Shown in pieces: positions 32,232 through 60,385 of a DNA stretch of 64,000 bases (within the stretch, counting starts at the first letter, position 1; each line of letters begins with the position of its first letter). The notes beneath the pieces are model-generated. The model searched no databases and had not been told where the DNA came from. It saw only the letters and a list, made by a program, of their open reading frames with translations. The position numbers were made by a program, and so were the translations under genes. The stretch is from Promethearchaeota archaeon (GTDB lineage: Archaea > Asgardarchaeota > Lokiarchaeia > Sigyniarchaeales > SOKP01): positions 1 through 64,000 of the forward strand of contig SHMW01000010.1 of assembly GCA_008080735.1 (NCBI GenBank). Direction: 5' to 3'.

Positions 32232-32390
32232 TCATAAACTCTCATATAATTCTGATGGTTTCCCACCGCACCCAAAGGTAAAAGACAAAAATTTTCTCTT
32301 TTTTTCACACTGGGGGCAGTAATAATTTCCCGATTCCTCTTTATCATCAAATGTAAATCCACATTCTTCGCAGATCACATAGCTTTTCAT
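32232..32390 (-). CDS. Small zinc ribbon protein (52 aa)
   Basis: MKSYVICEECGFTFDDKEE at the start, then GNYYCPQCEKKRKF: two CxxC knuckles spaced as in rubredoxin-like ribbons, with a further GCGGKPSELYE tail. It is paralogous to the next small gene (32548) and to the UGA-containing zinc ribbon at 35052. It overlaps a longer but meaningless frame on the same strand. Ends at a TGA; I found no SECIS-like element below it, so the TGA is taken as a true stop. Confidence 0.72.
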   Translation of the reverse strand: MKSYVICEECGFTFDDKEESGNYYCPQCEKKRKFLSFTFGCGGKPSELYESL

Positions 32391-32547
32391 ATCCAATTTA
32401 TGCTAAATAGATTATTAAAAACCAGAGGTTATAATCCCTTAATAATTGGAATGACCTTGAGATAATAGATAATAAAAAATTCATATTATACTATTTTCTA
32501 AAAATTGAGAAATAAAAAGTGTTAGGACAAAATCCGTGAGAATTGAG

Positions 32548-32679
32548 TTAGGATTCTGATTCTTTTTCAGACTCCATCTTAAAGAATTCGGTGTATTTCC
32601 CACAATTAGCGCAGTAATACTTTCCTGGTTCATCTTCATCATCGATCGCGGTTCCGCATGATCTACAAATAACAGTCAT
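32548..32679 (-). CDS. Small zinc ribbon protein (43 aa)
   Basis: MTVICRSCGTAIDDEDEPGK, then YYCANCGKYTEFFKM and an acidic tail: two CxxC knuckles 15 residues apart. Same layout as the 32232 gene, which lies 157 bases downstream. Too short for common gene callers. Function unknown; such ribbons often are metal-binding adaptors. Confidence 0.7.
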   Translation of the reverse strand: MTVICRSCGTAIDDEDEPGKYYCANCGKYTEFFKMESEKESES

Positions 32680-33376: not shown

Positions 33377-33501
33377 TTTTTCATGATTATAAAACTATAA
33401 AATATTATTTAAGTAAAAAATGTATGATTTTGATAATAAATTTTTTCTCAACATTAATCATCGAACTATTAAGAGAGGATATGAAATAAAAAATGAAAGG
33501 G

Positions 33502-33571
33502 TTCCCATAACCCGCGCGAGGCAGTCATCAAATGTCTCATTTTTTTACATTTGACTCATCCAAAATGGGAA
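33502..33571 (-). promoter_or_regulatory. SECIS-like element 1, 3' of the U-x-x-U peroxiredoxin gene
   Basis: Read on the minus strand: UUCCCAU, UUUGG, AUGA, G, helix UCAAAUGU, loop AAAAAAAUGAG, ACAUUUGA, UGAC, a GC-rich small hairpin, then AUGGGAA. The outer arms UUCCCAU/AUGGGAA pair over 7 bp. The 8-bp helix is perfect. AUGA begins 15 bases after the stop codon. AUGA opposite UGA with unpaired A's in the apical loop is the core of the eukaryotic SECIS, and Lokiarchaeota are known to have such elements. Confidence 0.85.
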
Positions 33572-33574
33572 ATT

Positions 33575-34066
33575 TTAACAATATTGTTTAATTGCGTTGA
33601 GAATAGTCTCGATATCTGGTCTGTCCGTCTTAGTTTCAGCAATATATTTCCACATAATTTTTCCCGAGTTGTTAATTAAAAATTTAGACGGTATAGCTTG
33701 CTTAGATTTAATATTTGTTTCTGCTATATTTTCATATATCTCAATATCGAATTTTTCTGCAATTTCTGCGTTCTTATCTGAGATTTGTGAAAAATGTAGG
33801 TTGTTCTGCTCTTGATATTCCCGCATATGGTTTTCACTGTCCGATGATATTGAAATAAGTTTAACATTGTATTTTCGGATTTTTTCTAGGTTCTTATTTA
33901 AGAGAATAGAATGCTGTTTTCAATGACCTCACCAAGTCCCTCGGAAGAAATCGATAAGTAATCAACTATAATTATCTATTATCTCTGATAAATCAATTAT
34001 ATTTCCGAGAATGTCTGTAATCTTAAAGTATGGTGCGTTTTTTCCAACCATAAGTCCTTCATTCAT
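33575..34066 (-). CDS. Peroxiredoxin-like selenoprotein with U-x-x-U motif (three in-frame UGA codons)
   Basis: 163 aa if UGA is read as Sec: Sec35 (codon 33962-33964), Sec46 (33929-33931), Sec49 (33920-33922). The motif LLIDFFRGTW-U-GH-U-KQH replaces the W-C-x-x-C of AhpC/TSA-type thioredoxin-fold proteins. Around it are MVGKNAPYFKITDILG at the start and VKLISISSDSENH after the active site, then AIPSKFLINNSGKIMWKY, the usual cis-Pro region. The paralogue at 34353 aligns throughout and has U-x-x-C. A standard reading leaves only a fragment from 33826. A SECIS-like element follows the stop. Likely a peroxide or disulfide reductase. Sec35 has no Cys counterpart in the paralogue and is the least certain. 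Confidence 0.85.
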
Positions 34067-34282
34067 AATTTAGGCACTGTGATTATATTATTGAAGTATA
34101 GGTGTTTAAACAATCATCTTAAATGTATTATAAATAATAAATTATGACCAATATCTAAAAACAAATTTATAATGTTTTTTTATTGTATTTTGAATTGTAC
34201 ATTTTTTTCAGCTTTTCTCCCCAAAAGTATGATCATGCCGAATTTTTAAAAGCTTAAAAAAATAAGAGAAAAGAGTCTAAAT

Positions 34283-34351
34283 ACCAGAACCTGGACAAAA
34301 GGTCGTCAACAAATGCCTCATTTTTTCTGCATCTGTATCATTCTCTCTGGT
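34283..34351 (-). promoter_or_regulatory. SECIS-like element 2, 3' of the U-x-x-C peroxiredoxin gene
   Basis: Minus-strand order: ACCAGA, GAGA, AUGA, U, helix ACAGAUGC, loop AGAAAAAAUGAG, GCAUUUGU, UGAC, hairpin ACCU/AGGU, UCUGGU. ACCAGA pairs with UCUGGU as the basal helix. The inner 8-bp helix includes one G-U pair and differs in sequence from element 1 while keeping pairing. AUGA begins 12 bases after the stop. Same geometry as elements 1 and 3. Confidence 0.85.
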
Positions 34352-34352
34352 T

Positions 34353-34883
34353 TTATAATTTTTTATCAATTTGCTCTGTTAGCAACTTGATTGAGGGCCT
34401 ATCTTCCCTTGTACCAATATATCTCCATGCAATTTTCATTTCCTTTCCAATTAGAAAGGTGGAGGGAATCGCTAATTTAGTCTTAAGATAGATTATATCT
34501 ATGGCGCTTCCAAAGGTATACACATCAAATTTCTTCGCAATCCTCGCTCCTCTGTCAGAAACTAAAGGAAATGTATATCCAAACTTACCGGATAATTCTT
34601 TTAAATGGTTTTTACTATCACTGGCAATTGCTATAAAGAACACCTTTCGTTTTTGAAATTCAGTTATATTTTTATTAATTCTCTCTAAATGTTCTTTGCA
34701 TGGAACTCAAAATGCGCCTCTAAAGAAATCTAATAGGATACCCCCAGAATCCTTCAAAACTTTTGTAAAATCTAAAATATTTTCGTTGATATCTACCAGC
34801 TGGTCAATAGGGATTTGAGATCCCACTTTTAATCCTTTATCAGAATCTTTATGCTCAATATCATTCATACAAAAAGAGATCAT
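34353..34883 (-). CDS. Peroxiredoxin-like selenoprotein with U-x-x-C motif
   Basis: 176 aa from ATG 34883 (or 171 from ATG 34868) with one UGA, codon 34707-34709, at residue 59. The context GILLDFFRGAF-U-VPC-KEH is the thioredoxin-fold active site of AhpC/TSA peroxiredoxins with Sec for the first Cys and Cys62 kept. Downstream: VFFIAIASDSKNH, FPLVSDRGARIAKKFDVY, AIPSTFLIGKEMKIAWRYIG, all family-like. Without recoding only residues from 34643 down would be called. It lies 286 bases upstream of its paralogue on the same strand, each gene with its own 3' element. Expected role: peroxide detoxification or thiol-disulfide exchange. Confidence 0.88.
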
Positions 34884-34971
34884 GTGGAATGATTTATTTA
34901 TTCCTTTTTTAAAAAATAACTTAATTATATTGACAGTGATCAGGAAGATAATTCTTATATATTGATGAGAA

Positions 34972-35025
34972 ACCCTTGCAAGGTGGTCAACATAAATCTA
35001 TAATTTGTATTTATGTCTCATTCCG
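34972..35025 (-). promoter_or_regulatory. SECIS-like element 3, 3' of the UGA-containing zinc ribbon gene
   Basis: Minus-strand order: GGA, AUGA, G, helix ACAUAAAU, loop ACAAAUUAUAG, AUUUAUGU, UGAC, then hairpin ACCUU-GCA-AGGGU. The 8-bp helix is perfect and its sequence is different from both others, so the pairing is conserved by covariation. A basal helix like those of elements 1 and 2 is weak here. AUGA begins about 30 bases after the stop codon of the small gene. Confidence 0.75.
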
Positions 35026-35051
35026 TTAAAATGCACAGTATATAGTTTTTA

Positions 35052-35168
35052 TCATTTGAAGCTAAAGACCATAAAATATTGGATTGATTTTCACAAAGGG
35101 CAATAATGATAACCGTTGGTCTTCTTATCCAAATGTAATATTTTTCCGCATTTTTGACAAATTATCAT
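35052..35168 (-). CDS. Tiny zinc ribbon with UGA at the fourth metal-ligand position (candidate selenoprotein)
   Basis: 38 aa if UGA 35091-35093 is read through: MIICQKCGKILHLDKK, then NGYHYCPL-U-KSIQYFMVFSFK. The related ribbons at 32232 and 32548 read YYCPQC and YYCANC at the same place, so UGA stands exactly where the last zinc-binding Cys is expected. A SECIS-like element of the same build as those of the two peroxiredoxin genes lies 30 bases downstream. Alternatives are a Cys-to-stop mutation in a dying gene or a chance frame; the element argues for recoding. Selenium as a structural zinc ligand would be unusual, so a redox role is possible. Confidence 0.6.
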
Positions 35169-35313
35169 ATATTCTCTAAGAGTGTAAGCTTTTATTCTAA
35201 ATTAAAAATAAGTTCTATATTTTAAAATATCGATAATTTTATTATCCAAAATAAATAAATGTTGATTAATCCAAATTTTTTTCGAAAATATAACTAGAAT
35301 CTTCTTGATCAAA

Positions 35314-36357
35314 ATGGAATTTGTCCGATATAATGAAGAGAAATATACAGTTGAAAAAGGATTCTTAGATTTAGGTCTGTTAGGTATAAAAAACTTACGA
35401 GAAGTCAAAGGACTAAACAAATTAAAAGATATTTACCACTTGGAATTGAGCTCTAATGAAATTTCTTGTATTGATGGTTTAGAGGAACTCACCTCATTAG
35501 AAGTTTTAAACTTAGGGAGCAATTCGATCCTAGAAATATCAGGATTAGAGAGTTTAGAAAATTTGGAAGTATTGCATCTAATTAGTAATCAGATCGCAGA
35601 AATTAAAGGATTAGAAAATCTAAGAAATCTAAAAGAACTCTATTTGCGAGGAAATCAAATTAAGAAAATAATGGGATTAGAAAGTCTAAATAAATTGGAA
35701 AAATTAGACCTTTCTTGGAATCTTATCAAATCGATAGAAGGATTAGAAAATTTACAGAATTTACAAGTCCTCTGGATAGCAGGAAATATAGTCACTCAAA
35801 TTTCTGGATTAGAACATTTGAGTTCTTTGAAAATCTTAAATTTAGCGGGAAATCAAATACAAAAAATAACGAGTTTGGATAATCTGGAAGAAATAGAAGA
35901 GCTTTATCTAAATAACAATCGGATAAAAAAAATTGAAGGTATGGGGACTCTGAAAAACCTTGAATCACTATGGCTAAATGGAAATAAAATAAGCAAGATT
36001 GAAGGATTGGATAATCTTTCAAATCTAAAACTGTTAAATCTTAAAGAAAACAACTTACCAAGAATTACTGGGTTATTAAAACAAAAAAATTTGAAAGAAC
36101 TTTATTTATCTGGAAATGAGATAGGACATATTTCCGGACTTGAAACTTTAACTAATTTAGAAACGCTCGATCTAAACGATAACAATATAAAGAAAATTAA
36201 TGGCTTAGAAGCTCTAATGAATTTAAATTCCTTATGGATTAAAGGGAACCAACTACCTGAAGATGTATTAGAAAAATTAGGGGGCATAGATTCGTCTGGA
36301 TTTGCGAATGATCCTATTAAATTTGTAGAATATTGTCTAATCAATATTTCCCAATAA
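35314..36357 (+). CDS. SDS22-like leucine-rich repeat protein
   Basis: 347 aa from ATG 35314 (TTG 35305 in frame). Thirteen consecutive 22-residue repeats of the form GLExLxNLxxLxLxxNxIxxIx, from about residue 37 to 322, with a short cap at each end. This is the SDS22-type repeat known from protein phosphatase 1 regulators and common in Asgard genomes. It forms a solenoid for protein binding. No signal peptide, so cytoplasmic. The divergent neighbour is the selenoprotein zinc ribbon, the convergent one an MFS gene 31 bp away. Confidence 0.92.
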   Translation: MEFVRYNEEKYTVEKGFLDLGLLGIKNLREVKGLNKLKDIYHLELSSNEISCIDGLEELTSLEVLNLGSNSILEISGLESLENLEVLHLISNQIAEIKGLENLRNLKELYLRGNQIKKIMGLESLNKLEKLDLSWNLIKSIEGLENLQNLQVLWIAGNIVTQISGLEHLSSLKILNLAGNQIQKITSLDNLEEIEELYLNNNRIKKIEGMGTLKNLESLWLNGNKISKIEGLDNLSNLKLLNLKENNLPRITGLLKQKNLKELYLSGNEIGHISGLETLTNLETLDLNDNNIKKINGLEALMNLNSLWIKGNQLPEDVLEKLGGIDSSGFANDPIKFVEYCLINISQ

Positions 36358-59346: not shown

Positions 59347-60318
59347 GTGATTTATCCTATAAAAAACAGTTTTAAAAAAATGTCAAAAATATCCTCTCTC
59401 CTCAAAAAGAAGTTTGTCCCGGTATATATATGTTTTATTCTAACAATTCTTCTATACGGAATAATTTTCCTCCTTGCGAGATTTCCAAACATTTTATTTG
59501 GGCTTGGTATACCTGAGGAATTCGTAACCCACTTTGTAAAGATTATACCTGGTCCGTTATGGTCTGATATTCTATTATTATATCTGATTCCGTTGGGAGT
59601 TTATATCGGAATGCAATATTTAAGCCCTTATTCTACGCGATTTTATATGAGACTCCATAAATCCTTTTATGTGCTAAGAACAAAGCCCATTTATGGAATT
59701 AATCCAAATGAAGGTCACATTAGCACAGGAAAAATATTCTTACGATTATTGAAAGGAAGTTTCTTAAGTTTTGTGATTGCCACTGGAATAATGCAATTTG
59801 GTCTCACGCCAATATTTCGTCATATTACGGGTGAGCCAGGAACGATAATAACCTTATTTCGTGCAGAAGCAATCTTTTTAGCGACTTTCTTTTTCAGCTT
59901 TTTAATTGTGATAATCTATTTTCCTATTTGGAATCTAGAAGATTCGGGACTAGTTGCTTATAGGAAATTTACAAAGAAACGGAAAAACCCAGATATTGAG
60001 GGAGTAAATCGGATTTTTCGAGATTTCATAGAATATTCTATCAGCTTTTCAACAATTTTAGTATATTTCAATCTTTTCTTTAACACTTTAACTTGGGTTA
60101 TAAATTACGATCCGACTGGAGCATCTCTATTAATTCCTCTTATCTTAATATTTCTCCCGTTCCTGATTCCTGGGTTATATGCAATACCGATGATTCTCTA
60201 TGAGCTGAATTTTGATAAGAATATGAAAAGAATCCATAAACATTTGGAAAAAAAGGAGATTCCCCATATAGCCGTTCCAGATTTTTATGATTTAGTGAAG
60301 AAAGGAGAAAAAAAGTGA
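59347..60318 (+). CDS. Multi-span membrane protein, unknown family
   Basis: 323 aa with a GTG start (ATG at 59380 is an alternative). Six hydrophobic segments: about 25-47, 70-90, 138-158, 172-192, 228-250, 262-285, with polar loops YMRLHKSFYVLRTKP and YRKFTKKRKNPDIEG. Ends in a basic cytoplasmic tail. No family recognised; neither ABC permease nor MFS signatures are present. Downstream convergent with an MFS gene. Confidence 0.6.
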   Translation: MIYPIKNSFKKMSKISSLLKKKFVPVYICFILTILLYGIIFLLARFPNILFGLGIPEEFVTHFVKIIPGPLWSDILLLYLIPLGVYIGMQYLSPYSTRFYMRLHKSFYVLRTKPIYGINPNEGHISTGKIFLRLLKGSFLSFVIATGIMQFGLTPIFRHITGEPGTIITLFRAEAIFLATFFFSFLIVIIYFPIWNLEDSGLVAYRKFTKKRKNPDIEGVNRIFRDFIEYSISFSTILVYFNLFFNTLTWVINYDPTGASLLIPLILIFLPFLIPGLYAIPMILYELNFDKNMKRIHKHLEKKEIPHIAVPDFYDLVKKGEKK

Positions 60319-60385
60319 ATAATTTCATTTTTATTCTTTTTTCTTTTAATTTTTTATTTCTGAGCTATGAACCTTGTTGATGATC

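Follow-up and report, generated by a model that had tools for sequence, protein, structure and literature searches.

Three adjacent genes with in-frame UGA codons and SECIS elements in a genome of Lokiarchaeia, including a putative zinc-ribbon selenoprotein ending in selenocysteine

Three neighboring genes on the minus strand of a 64,000 nt stretch of Lokiarchaeal DNA (the window) contain in-frame UGA codons, raising the question of whether these codons specify selenocysteine (Sec), terminate translation, or arose in some other way. The window lies on contig C10 of a MAG of 4.1 Mb with 7% contamination. Gene 1 (35049..35168) carries two UGAs (codons 26 and 39), gene 2 (34353..34883) carries one (codon 59), and gene 3 (33575..34066) carries three (codons 35, 46 and 49); each gene is then followed by a SECIS element of its own. 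An earlier note on this DNA had placed three UGA-containing frames with 3′ elements here, and both frames and elements were confirmed. Its end point for gene 1, which gave 38 residues and one UGA, required correction. Specifically, relatives of the gene indicate that the TGA at 35052-35054 is a Sec codon (U39, the last residue), and the codon directly after it, a TAA at 35049-35051, is the stop. The other UGA of gene 1, U26, lies at 35091-35093.

We consider it very likely that three selenoprotein genes follow one another at this locus, with a SECIS in each mRNA, and that gene 1 represents a separate selenoprotein family of Lokiarchaeia. In the proposed mechanism, each of the three mRNAs would end in a Lokiarchaeal SECIS that lets EFSec and Sec-tRNA decode in-frame UGAs as Sec. 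Genes 2 and 3 would then use Sec as the peroxidatic residue, and gene 1 would yield a zinc ribbon of 37-39 residues ending in FKU-COOH, whose terminal selenol is inferred to be a mobile redox or metal-binding group as its most likely role. Sec coding, as the earlier note had proposed, is supported by UGA in homologues (60/60 at the peroxidatic codon of the Prx-like proteins), by a covarying SECIS after each gene and by a complete set of machinery genes. This evidence is computational only; there are no expression or mass-spectrometry data, translation and protein chemistry are not shown, and both recoding and protein function are inferred.

Several in-frame UGAs within one region might also be encountered if UGA were reassigned throughout this genome, for example to Trp. 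However, the UGAs align with Cys or with a Sec motif and never with Trp, the standard code leaves large neighboring genes open, and the presence of SECIS elements and a tRNA-Sec argues against general reassignment. The pattern of UGA positions refutes this candidate, to which we assign practically no weight.

The SECIS elements stand out from the rest of the window. A scan of the 64 kb for the core pattern AUGA-N-8 bp (at most one mismatch)-10 to 13 nt loop-NGAC yielded exactly three matches against a Markov-1 expectation of 0.23, all free of mismatches and each located just 3′ of one UGA gene. A covariance model, R1, was built from 34 non-redundant, aligned SECIS elements of Prx genes from other Lokiarchaeal genomes, with the window left out. 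Within the window, R1 recovered these three elements only, at 66.9, 51.9 and 49.3 bits (E values of 1e-16, 3e-12 and 2e-11); the next match had 13.5 bits and an E value of 0.56. All on the minus strand, the elements occupy 34960..35032 (SECIS 1; core AUGA at 35018-35021, R1 E value 1.8e-11), 34277..34354 (SECIS 2; core AUGA at 34338-34341, E value 3.1e-12) and 33498..33573 (SECIS 3; core AUGA at 33556-33559, E value 1.2e-16). Across 404 kb of loci surrounding Prx or gene 1, the model gave 64 matches, which is essentially one per Sec gene. Elsewhere in the source genome, its matches fell downstream of three MvhD-like genes and of two VhuU genes, with one more at an unassigned place; MvhD in this genome has two UGAs. 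One match (locus L134, 29.6 bits) was rejected as probably false, with no plausible UGA gene upstream.

Folding of the three 3′ regions, another check proposed in the earlier note, did not distinguish the elements from shuffled sequences (z scores of -0.6, -0.5 and +0.6). The folding energy of single elements was therefore not used as evidence, since folding alone is no proof of structure and covariation is. Among the 34 aligned Prx elements, the upper stem (P2) is changed on both sides at 8/8 pairs, the lower stem (P1) at 6/6 pairs and a second hairpin (P3) at 3/5. By the main measures, the whole structure also surpasses every one of 500 shuffles and every slid version. The gene-1 elements taken alone exhibit covariation at 8/8 upper-stem pairs; SECIS 1 itself has a poorly formed lower stem P1.

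The P3 hairpin (AACC-N-GC-GGUU) is conserved, flanked by the kink-turn core on one side and the lower stem on the other. It is present in the Prx, gene-1, MvhD and VhuU elements of the window and the source genome, where 89% of cells are paired. The predicted SECIS of Lokiarchaeia resembles a three-way junction, formed by the lower stem, the stem of the kink-turn and a hairpin in which CC/GG is invariant. All three window elements satisfy the type I eSECIS-like model of Huang et al. (2024; PMC11227280), given in the available part of that paper as a GA_[G/A]A core, an upper stem of 7-15 bp and an apical loop of 8-20 nt. Like the Lokiarchaeal eSECIS-like elements already described (Huang et al., 2024; Mariotti et al., 2016), they combine an AUGA/GA core with an 8-bp upper stem and an A-rich apical loop. 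They differ from the published elements, as far as the accessible portions of those papers extend, in the conserved second hairpin and the three-way junction; priority over Mariotti et al. (2016) is not claimed. The same portion of Huang et al. (PMC11227280) describes the nucleotides around the SECIS core as not highly conserved, and a 2022 review (PMC9499178) assigns the Lokiarchaeal SECIS a single apical loop.

If these elements function in Sec insertion, the corresponding machinery should be encoded in the same genome. This point, also raised in the earlier note, was borne out by the finding of SelD, PSTK, SepSecS, EFSec and tRNA-Sec. SepSecS and EFSec are both on contig C15, SelD is on contig C63 and has its own in-frame UGA in the motif HGUSCK, and a PSTK homologue on contig C93 scores 178.6 bits, under the curated NCBIfam cut-off of 290.5. 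A search of this genome with Rfam RF01852 returned tRNA-Gly, tRNA-Cys and tRNA-Arg only and no tRNA-Sec. Sister genomes gave detectable tRNA-Sec, and a sister sequence used as a DNA query located the gene on the minus strand of C15 at 60227-60370 (L015:10228-10371), between SepSecS and EFSec. It was missed by RF01852 because two introns split it, one of 22 nt after A37 in the anticodon loop and one of 29 nt in the T loop, with splice sites inferred by comparison with intron-less relatives. Without both introns the RNA is 93 nt long, has a 9 bp acceptor stem, a 4 bp T stem and a 7 bp D stem, and is called tRNA-SeC(tca) by ARAGORN. The 7-bp D stem and the T-arm intron match the Lokiarchaeal tRNA-Sec of Mariotti et al. 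(2016), for which the citing papers (PMC9499178, PMC5330540), in the passages available, give a single T-arm intron; within that literature, the second intron is a difference. A tRNA-Sec with two introns explains how standard searches such as the Rfam tRNA-Sec model can overlook the Sec trait. Two other tRNA-Sec candidates (L172 in G157 and L173 in G155) have an unusual 5′ part, GAAAGATA.., replacing the usual acceptor and D region, which perhaps marks another intron position.

Genes 2 and 3 can be assigned to a known family. The criterion for a Prx-like selenoprotein, an AhpC/TSA domain combined with a peroxidatic Sec, is satisfied by both: gene 2 (AhpC-TSA E value 5e-19) has a UxxC motif with Sec codon U59 at 34707-34709, and gene 3 (E value 8e-23) has a UxxU motif with Sec codons U46 (33929-33931) and U49 (33920-33922). 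At the peroxidatic codon, TGA was found in 60/60 Lokiarchaeal Prx positions examined. The resolving position of these homologues is TGA in 20, TGT in 22 and TGC in 18, and 20/60 thus have UxxU. The solved chains nearest in sequence to the two proteins are of the ResA and Bcp types. Judged by sequence, both proteins belong to the Prx-like selenoproteins and have Sec as the peroxidatic residue; their peroxidase activity is inferred only. Gene 2 has an internal Met at residue 6 that may be the true start.

A first contig scan, made with Prx patterns that demanded a Cys codon at the UGA or were private to the window, gave no matches. A scan with the Prx parts downstream of the Sec motif gave 46 loci, and Lokiarchaeal/Prometheoarchaeum MAGs account for 45 of these; the named records are Candidatus Lokiarchaeota/Lokiarchaeia MAGs plus one Prometheoarchaeum, which places the window in Lokiarchaeia by kinship. 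Mariotti and coworkers are said to have reported Asgard Prx-like selenoproteins earlier, in 2016. In the part of the 2024 survey that is available, Prx-like proteins with UxxC or UxxU are already listed as an Asgard selenoprotein family (Huang et al., 2024; PMC11227280). Genes 2 and 3 share with this family the AhpC/TSA fold, the peroxidatic Sec, the UxxC/UxxU motif and a 3′-UTR element of the type I eSECIS-like class. They differ in the third UGA of gene 3, which occupies a Gly position, and in their tandem arrangement with one SECIS per gene. Pairs of this kind, again with a SECIS for each gene, were also seen in G155, G115, G111 and G120 (L071, L072, L073 and L074). At another locus (L100, on G114:C13), a TAG interrupts the frame of a Prx selenoprotein, a possible pseudogene or assembly error.

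Gene 1 encodes the 39-residue product MIICQKCGKILHLDKKTNGYHYCPLUKSIQYFMVFSFKU. Homologue and profile searches over 228 genomes of the phylum yielded 27 full-length members, all from genomes of the family to which the window belongs. Nine columns are invariant when U is read as C (M1, C4, C7, G19, C23, C26, F32, K38 and C/U39), and four of them, C4, C7, C23 and C26, supply the CxxC..CxxC pattern that, together with a three-strand ribbon, is the criterion for a zinc ribbon. An AlphaFold model (mean pLDDT 86) forms a three-strand ribbon. Because the protein is very short, protein statistics are weak by themselves. No Pfam or NCBIfam model reached its cut-off in gene 1, Foldseek with the predicted structure gave no significant PDB match, and a profile search of PDB sequences found none.

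The carboxyl terminus of gene 1 provides the more informative comparison. In 25/27 relatives the frame closes with Lys-UGA and an immediate TAA or TAG, both stops being in use, and R1 finds a SECIS after 25/25 of these genes. Universal among the 25 Sec-type genes, the UGA-TAA/TAG tandem has a background frequency of 5.4% when all of the window's TGA triplets are counted. The remaining 2/27 (G113 and G117) end in TGT (Lys-Cys) and then TAA, and have no SECIS. A leucine-rich-repeat gene that diverges from gene 1 (35305..36357, plus strand; LRR_4 E value 2e-71) serves as its synteny marker and is found upstream at 23/27 loci, including both Cys forms, and this shared synteny identifies the Cys forms as orthologues of gene 1. 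G113 and G117 are close relatives and were counted as a single Sec/Cys event. The comparison shows that, at the sequence level, UGA, SECIS and Cys exchange together in this family. In longer zinc-ribbon paralogues, a Cys likewise stands as far from the ribbon as U39 does. One of these ordinary paralogues is in the window itself (32232..32396, minus strand); its Cys (..FTFGC..) aligns by spacing with U39, and it lacks a SECIS, no significant R1 match being found there.

A UGA-TAA pair by itself could be a tandem stop, in which case the 3′ element of gene 1 would be some other kink-turn RNA, such as an L7Ae-bound 3′ UTR or a C/D-box-like RNA. The AUGA..UGAC signature is indeed a kink-turn motif common to C/D RNAs, and an Rfam scan of the region detected no SECIS family, only weak, snoRNA-like matches at chance level. 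Nevertheless, 24 relatives of gene 1 contain no other UGA and yet all of them have the element, which is missing exactly where the last codon is Cys. The same element is found behind MvhD, VhuU and Prx selenoprotein genes, and zinc-ribbon paralogues in G104 that end in plain UGA stops are without it. We therefore regard a tandem stop as very improbable and retain the terminal UGA of gene 1 as a predicted Sec codon. The G104 paralogues, having no SECIS, were rejected as further Sec members.

The two extra UGAs are less certain. The earlier note had the UGAs falling where the family has Cys, and this is true of U26, which takes the fourth metal-ligand position and is Cys in all other relatives. 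It does not apply to U35 of gene 3 (33962-33964), whose column is Gly in 56/60 homologues, with GGA in 33 of them; GGA to TGA is a single base change. Each of these UGAs is known from one MAG only, that of the window. They could reflect sequencing error, damage or disabling mutation in genes whose conserved UGAs are real Sec codons, one replacing a zinc-ligand Cys and the other a Gly, and we keep this possibility as a serious though not favored one. Set against it, both lie inside SECIS-bearing genes with otherwise intact frames, multi-Sec proteins reportedly occur in the lineage according to work of Mariotti and coworkers from 2016, and MvhD of the same genome has its two UGAs. A single SECIS in the 3′ UTR can serve several UGAs. 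U26 and U35 are probably, by inference, extra Sec residues that are tolerated as the 3′-UTR SECIS serves every upstream in-frame UGA.

The available parts of the main texts of the 2024 survey, which names seven Asgard families (Huang et al., 2024; PMC11227280), and of a 2026 review, which counts eleven archaeal families, contain no zinc ribbon or C-terminal Sec protein of the gene-1 type. Gene 1 has no Pfam or NCBIfam match to the Asgard selenoprotein families SelD, FrhA, HdrA, FrhD, Prx-like, AhpF-N and DsbA-like, and our literature search, which did not extend to the supplements of the surveys, found no description of such a selenoprotein. Searches for Asgard selenoproteins began from known families, and a 37-residue protein with no family-wide Sec except at its end could not be found in this way. 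The bacterial selenoprotein SaoC (Cys-Cys-COOH, motif CU; PMC13188914) is similarly small, with Sec at or near the C terminus and a possible metal or redox role, although no alignment was made; gene 1 differs from bacterial SaoC and its CU motif in its zinc ribbon, FKU-COOH end and 3′-UTR SECIS. It is probable that gene 1 constitutes a selenoprotein family not previously described, without involving a new mechanism. We also think it likely that gene 1 founds a C-terminal-Sec zinc-ribbon family restricted to Lokiarchaeia, that the SECIS of this lineage is a three-way junction, and that SECIS-bearing genes accumulate additional Sec residues, also in place of a zinc ligand.

If this is true, the sister lineage of eukaryotes has an unusually built selenoprotein family. 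Gene 1 would allow the decoding of a C-terminal Sec right before a stop codon to be tested in a compact natural system, and its 25 Sec and 2 Cys orthologues provide a gain-or-loss pair whose codon and SECIS change in concert. How Sec coding changed between archaea and eukaryotes could be probed through two details that can be tested directly, the P3 hairpin and the tRNA-Sec with two introns.

The arrangement of the locus, which the earlier note had taken for a functional cluster, has only partial support. Gene 1 adjoins Prx in 5/27 genomes (the window, G109, G110, G113 and G117), probably representing three lineages, but co-occurrence of the two is not significant (19/27 versus 19/38, p = 0.13). 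That the gene 1 protein is a partner of the neighboring Prx is inferred from adjacency and not from co-occurrence, and remains a speculative and rather doubtful proposal.

Two further observations were made outside the island. A strong SECIS (55 bits) at L109:1294-1574 (G000:C102:10160-10440) follows a small ORF that encodes a membrane helix and contains a UGA in frame (..NQLDNGEPSGUACITFL..); the loci compared included no homologue, and the ORF is possibly another new selenoprotein. Downstream of the island, positions 32232-32676 of the window hold two ordinary zinc-ribbon paralogues of gene 1; in other genomes, too, gene 1 has similar tandem paralogues downstream, along with an AlaX-like gene.
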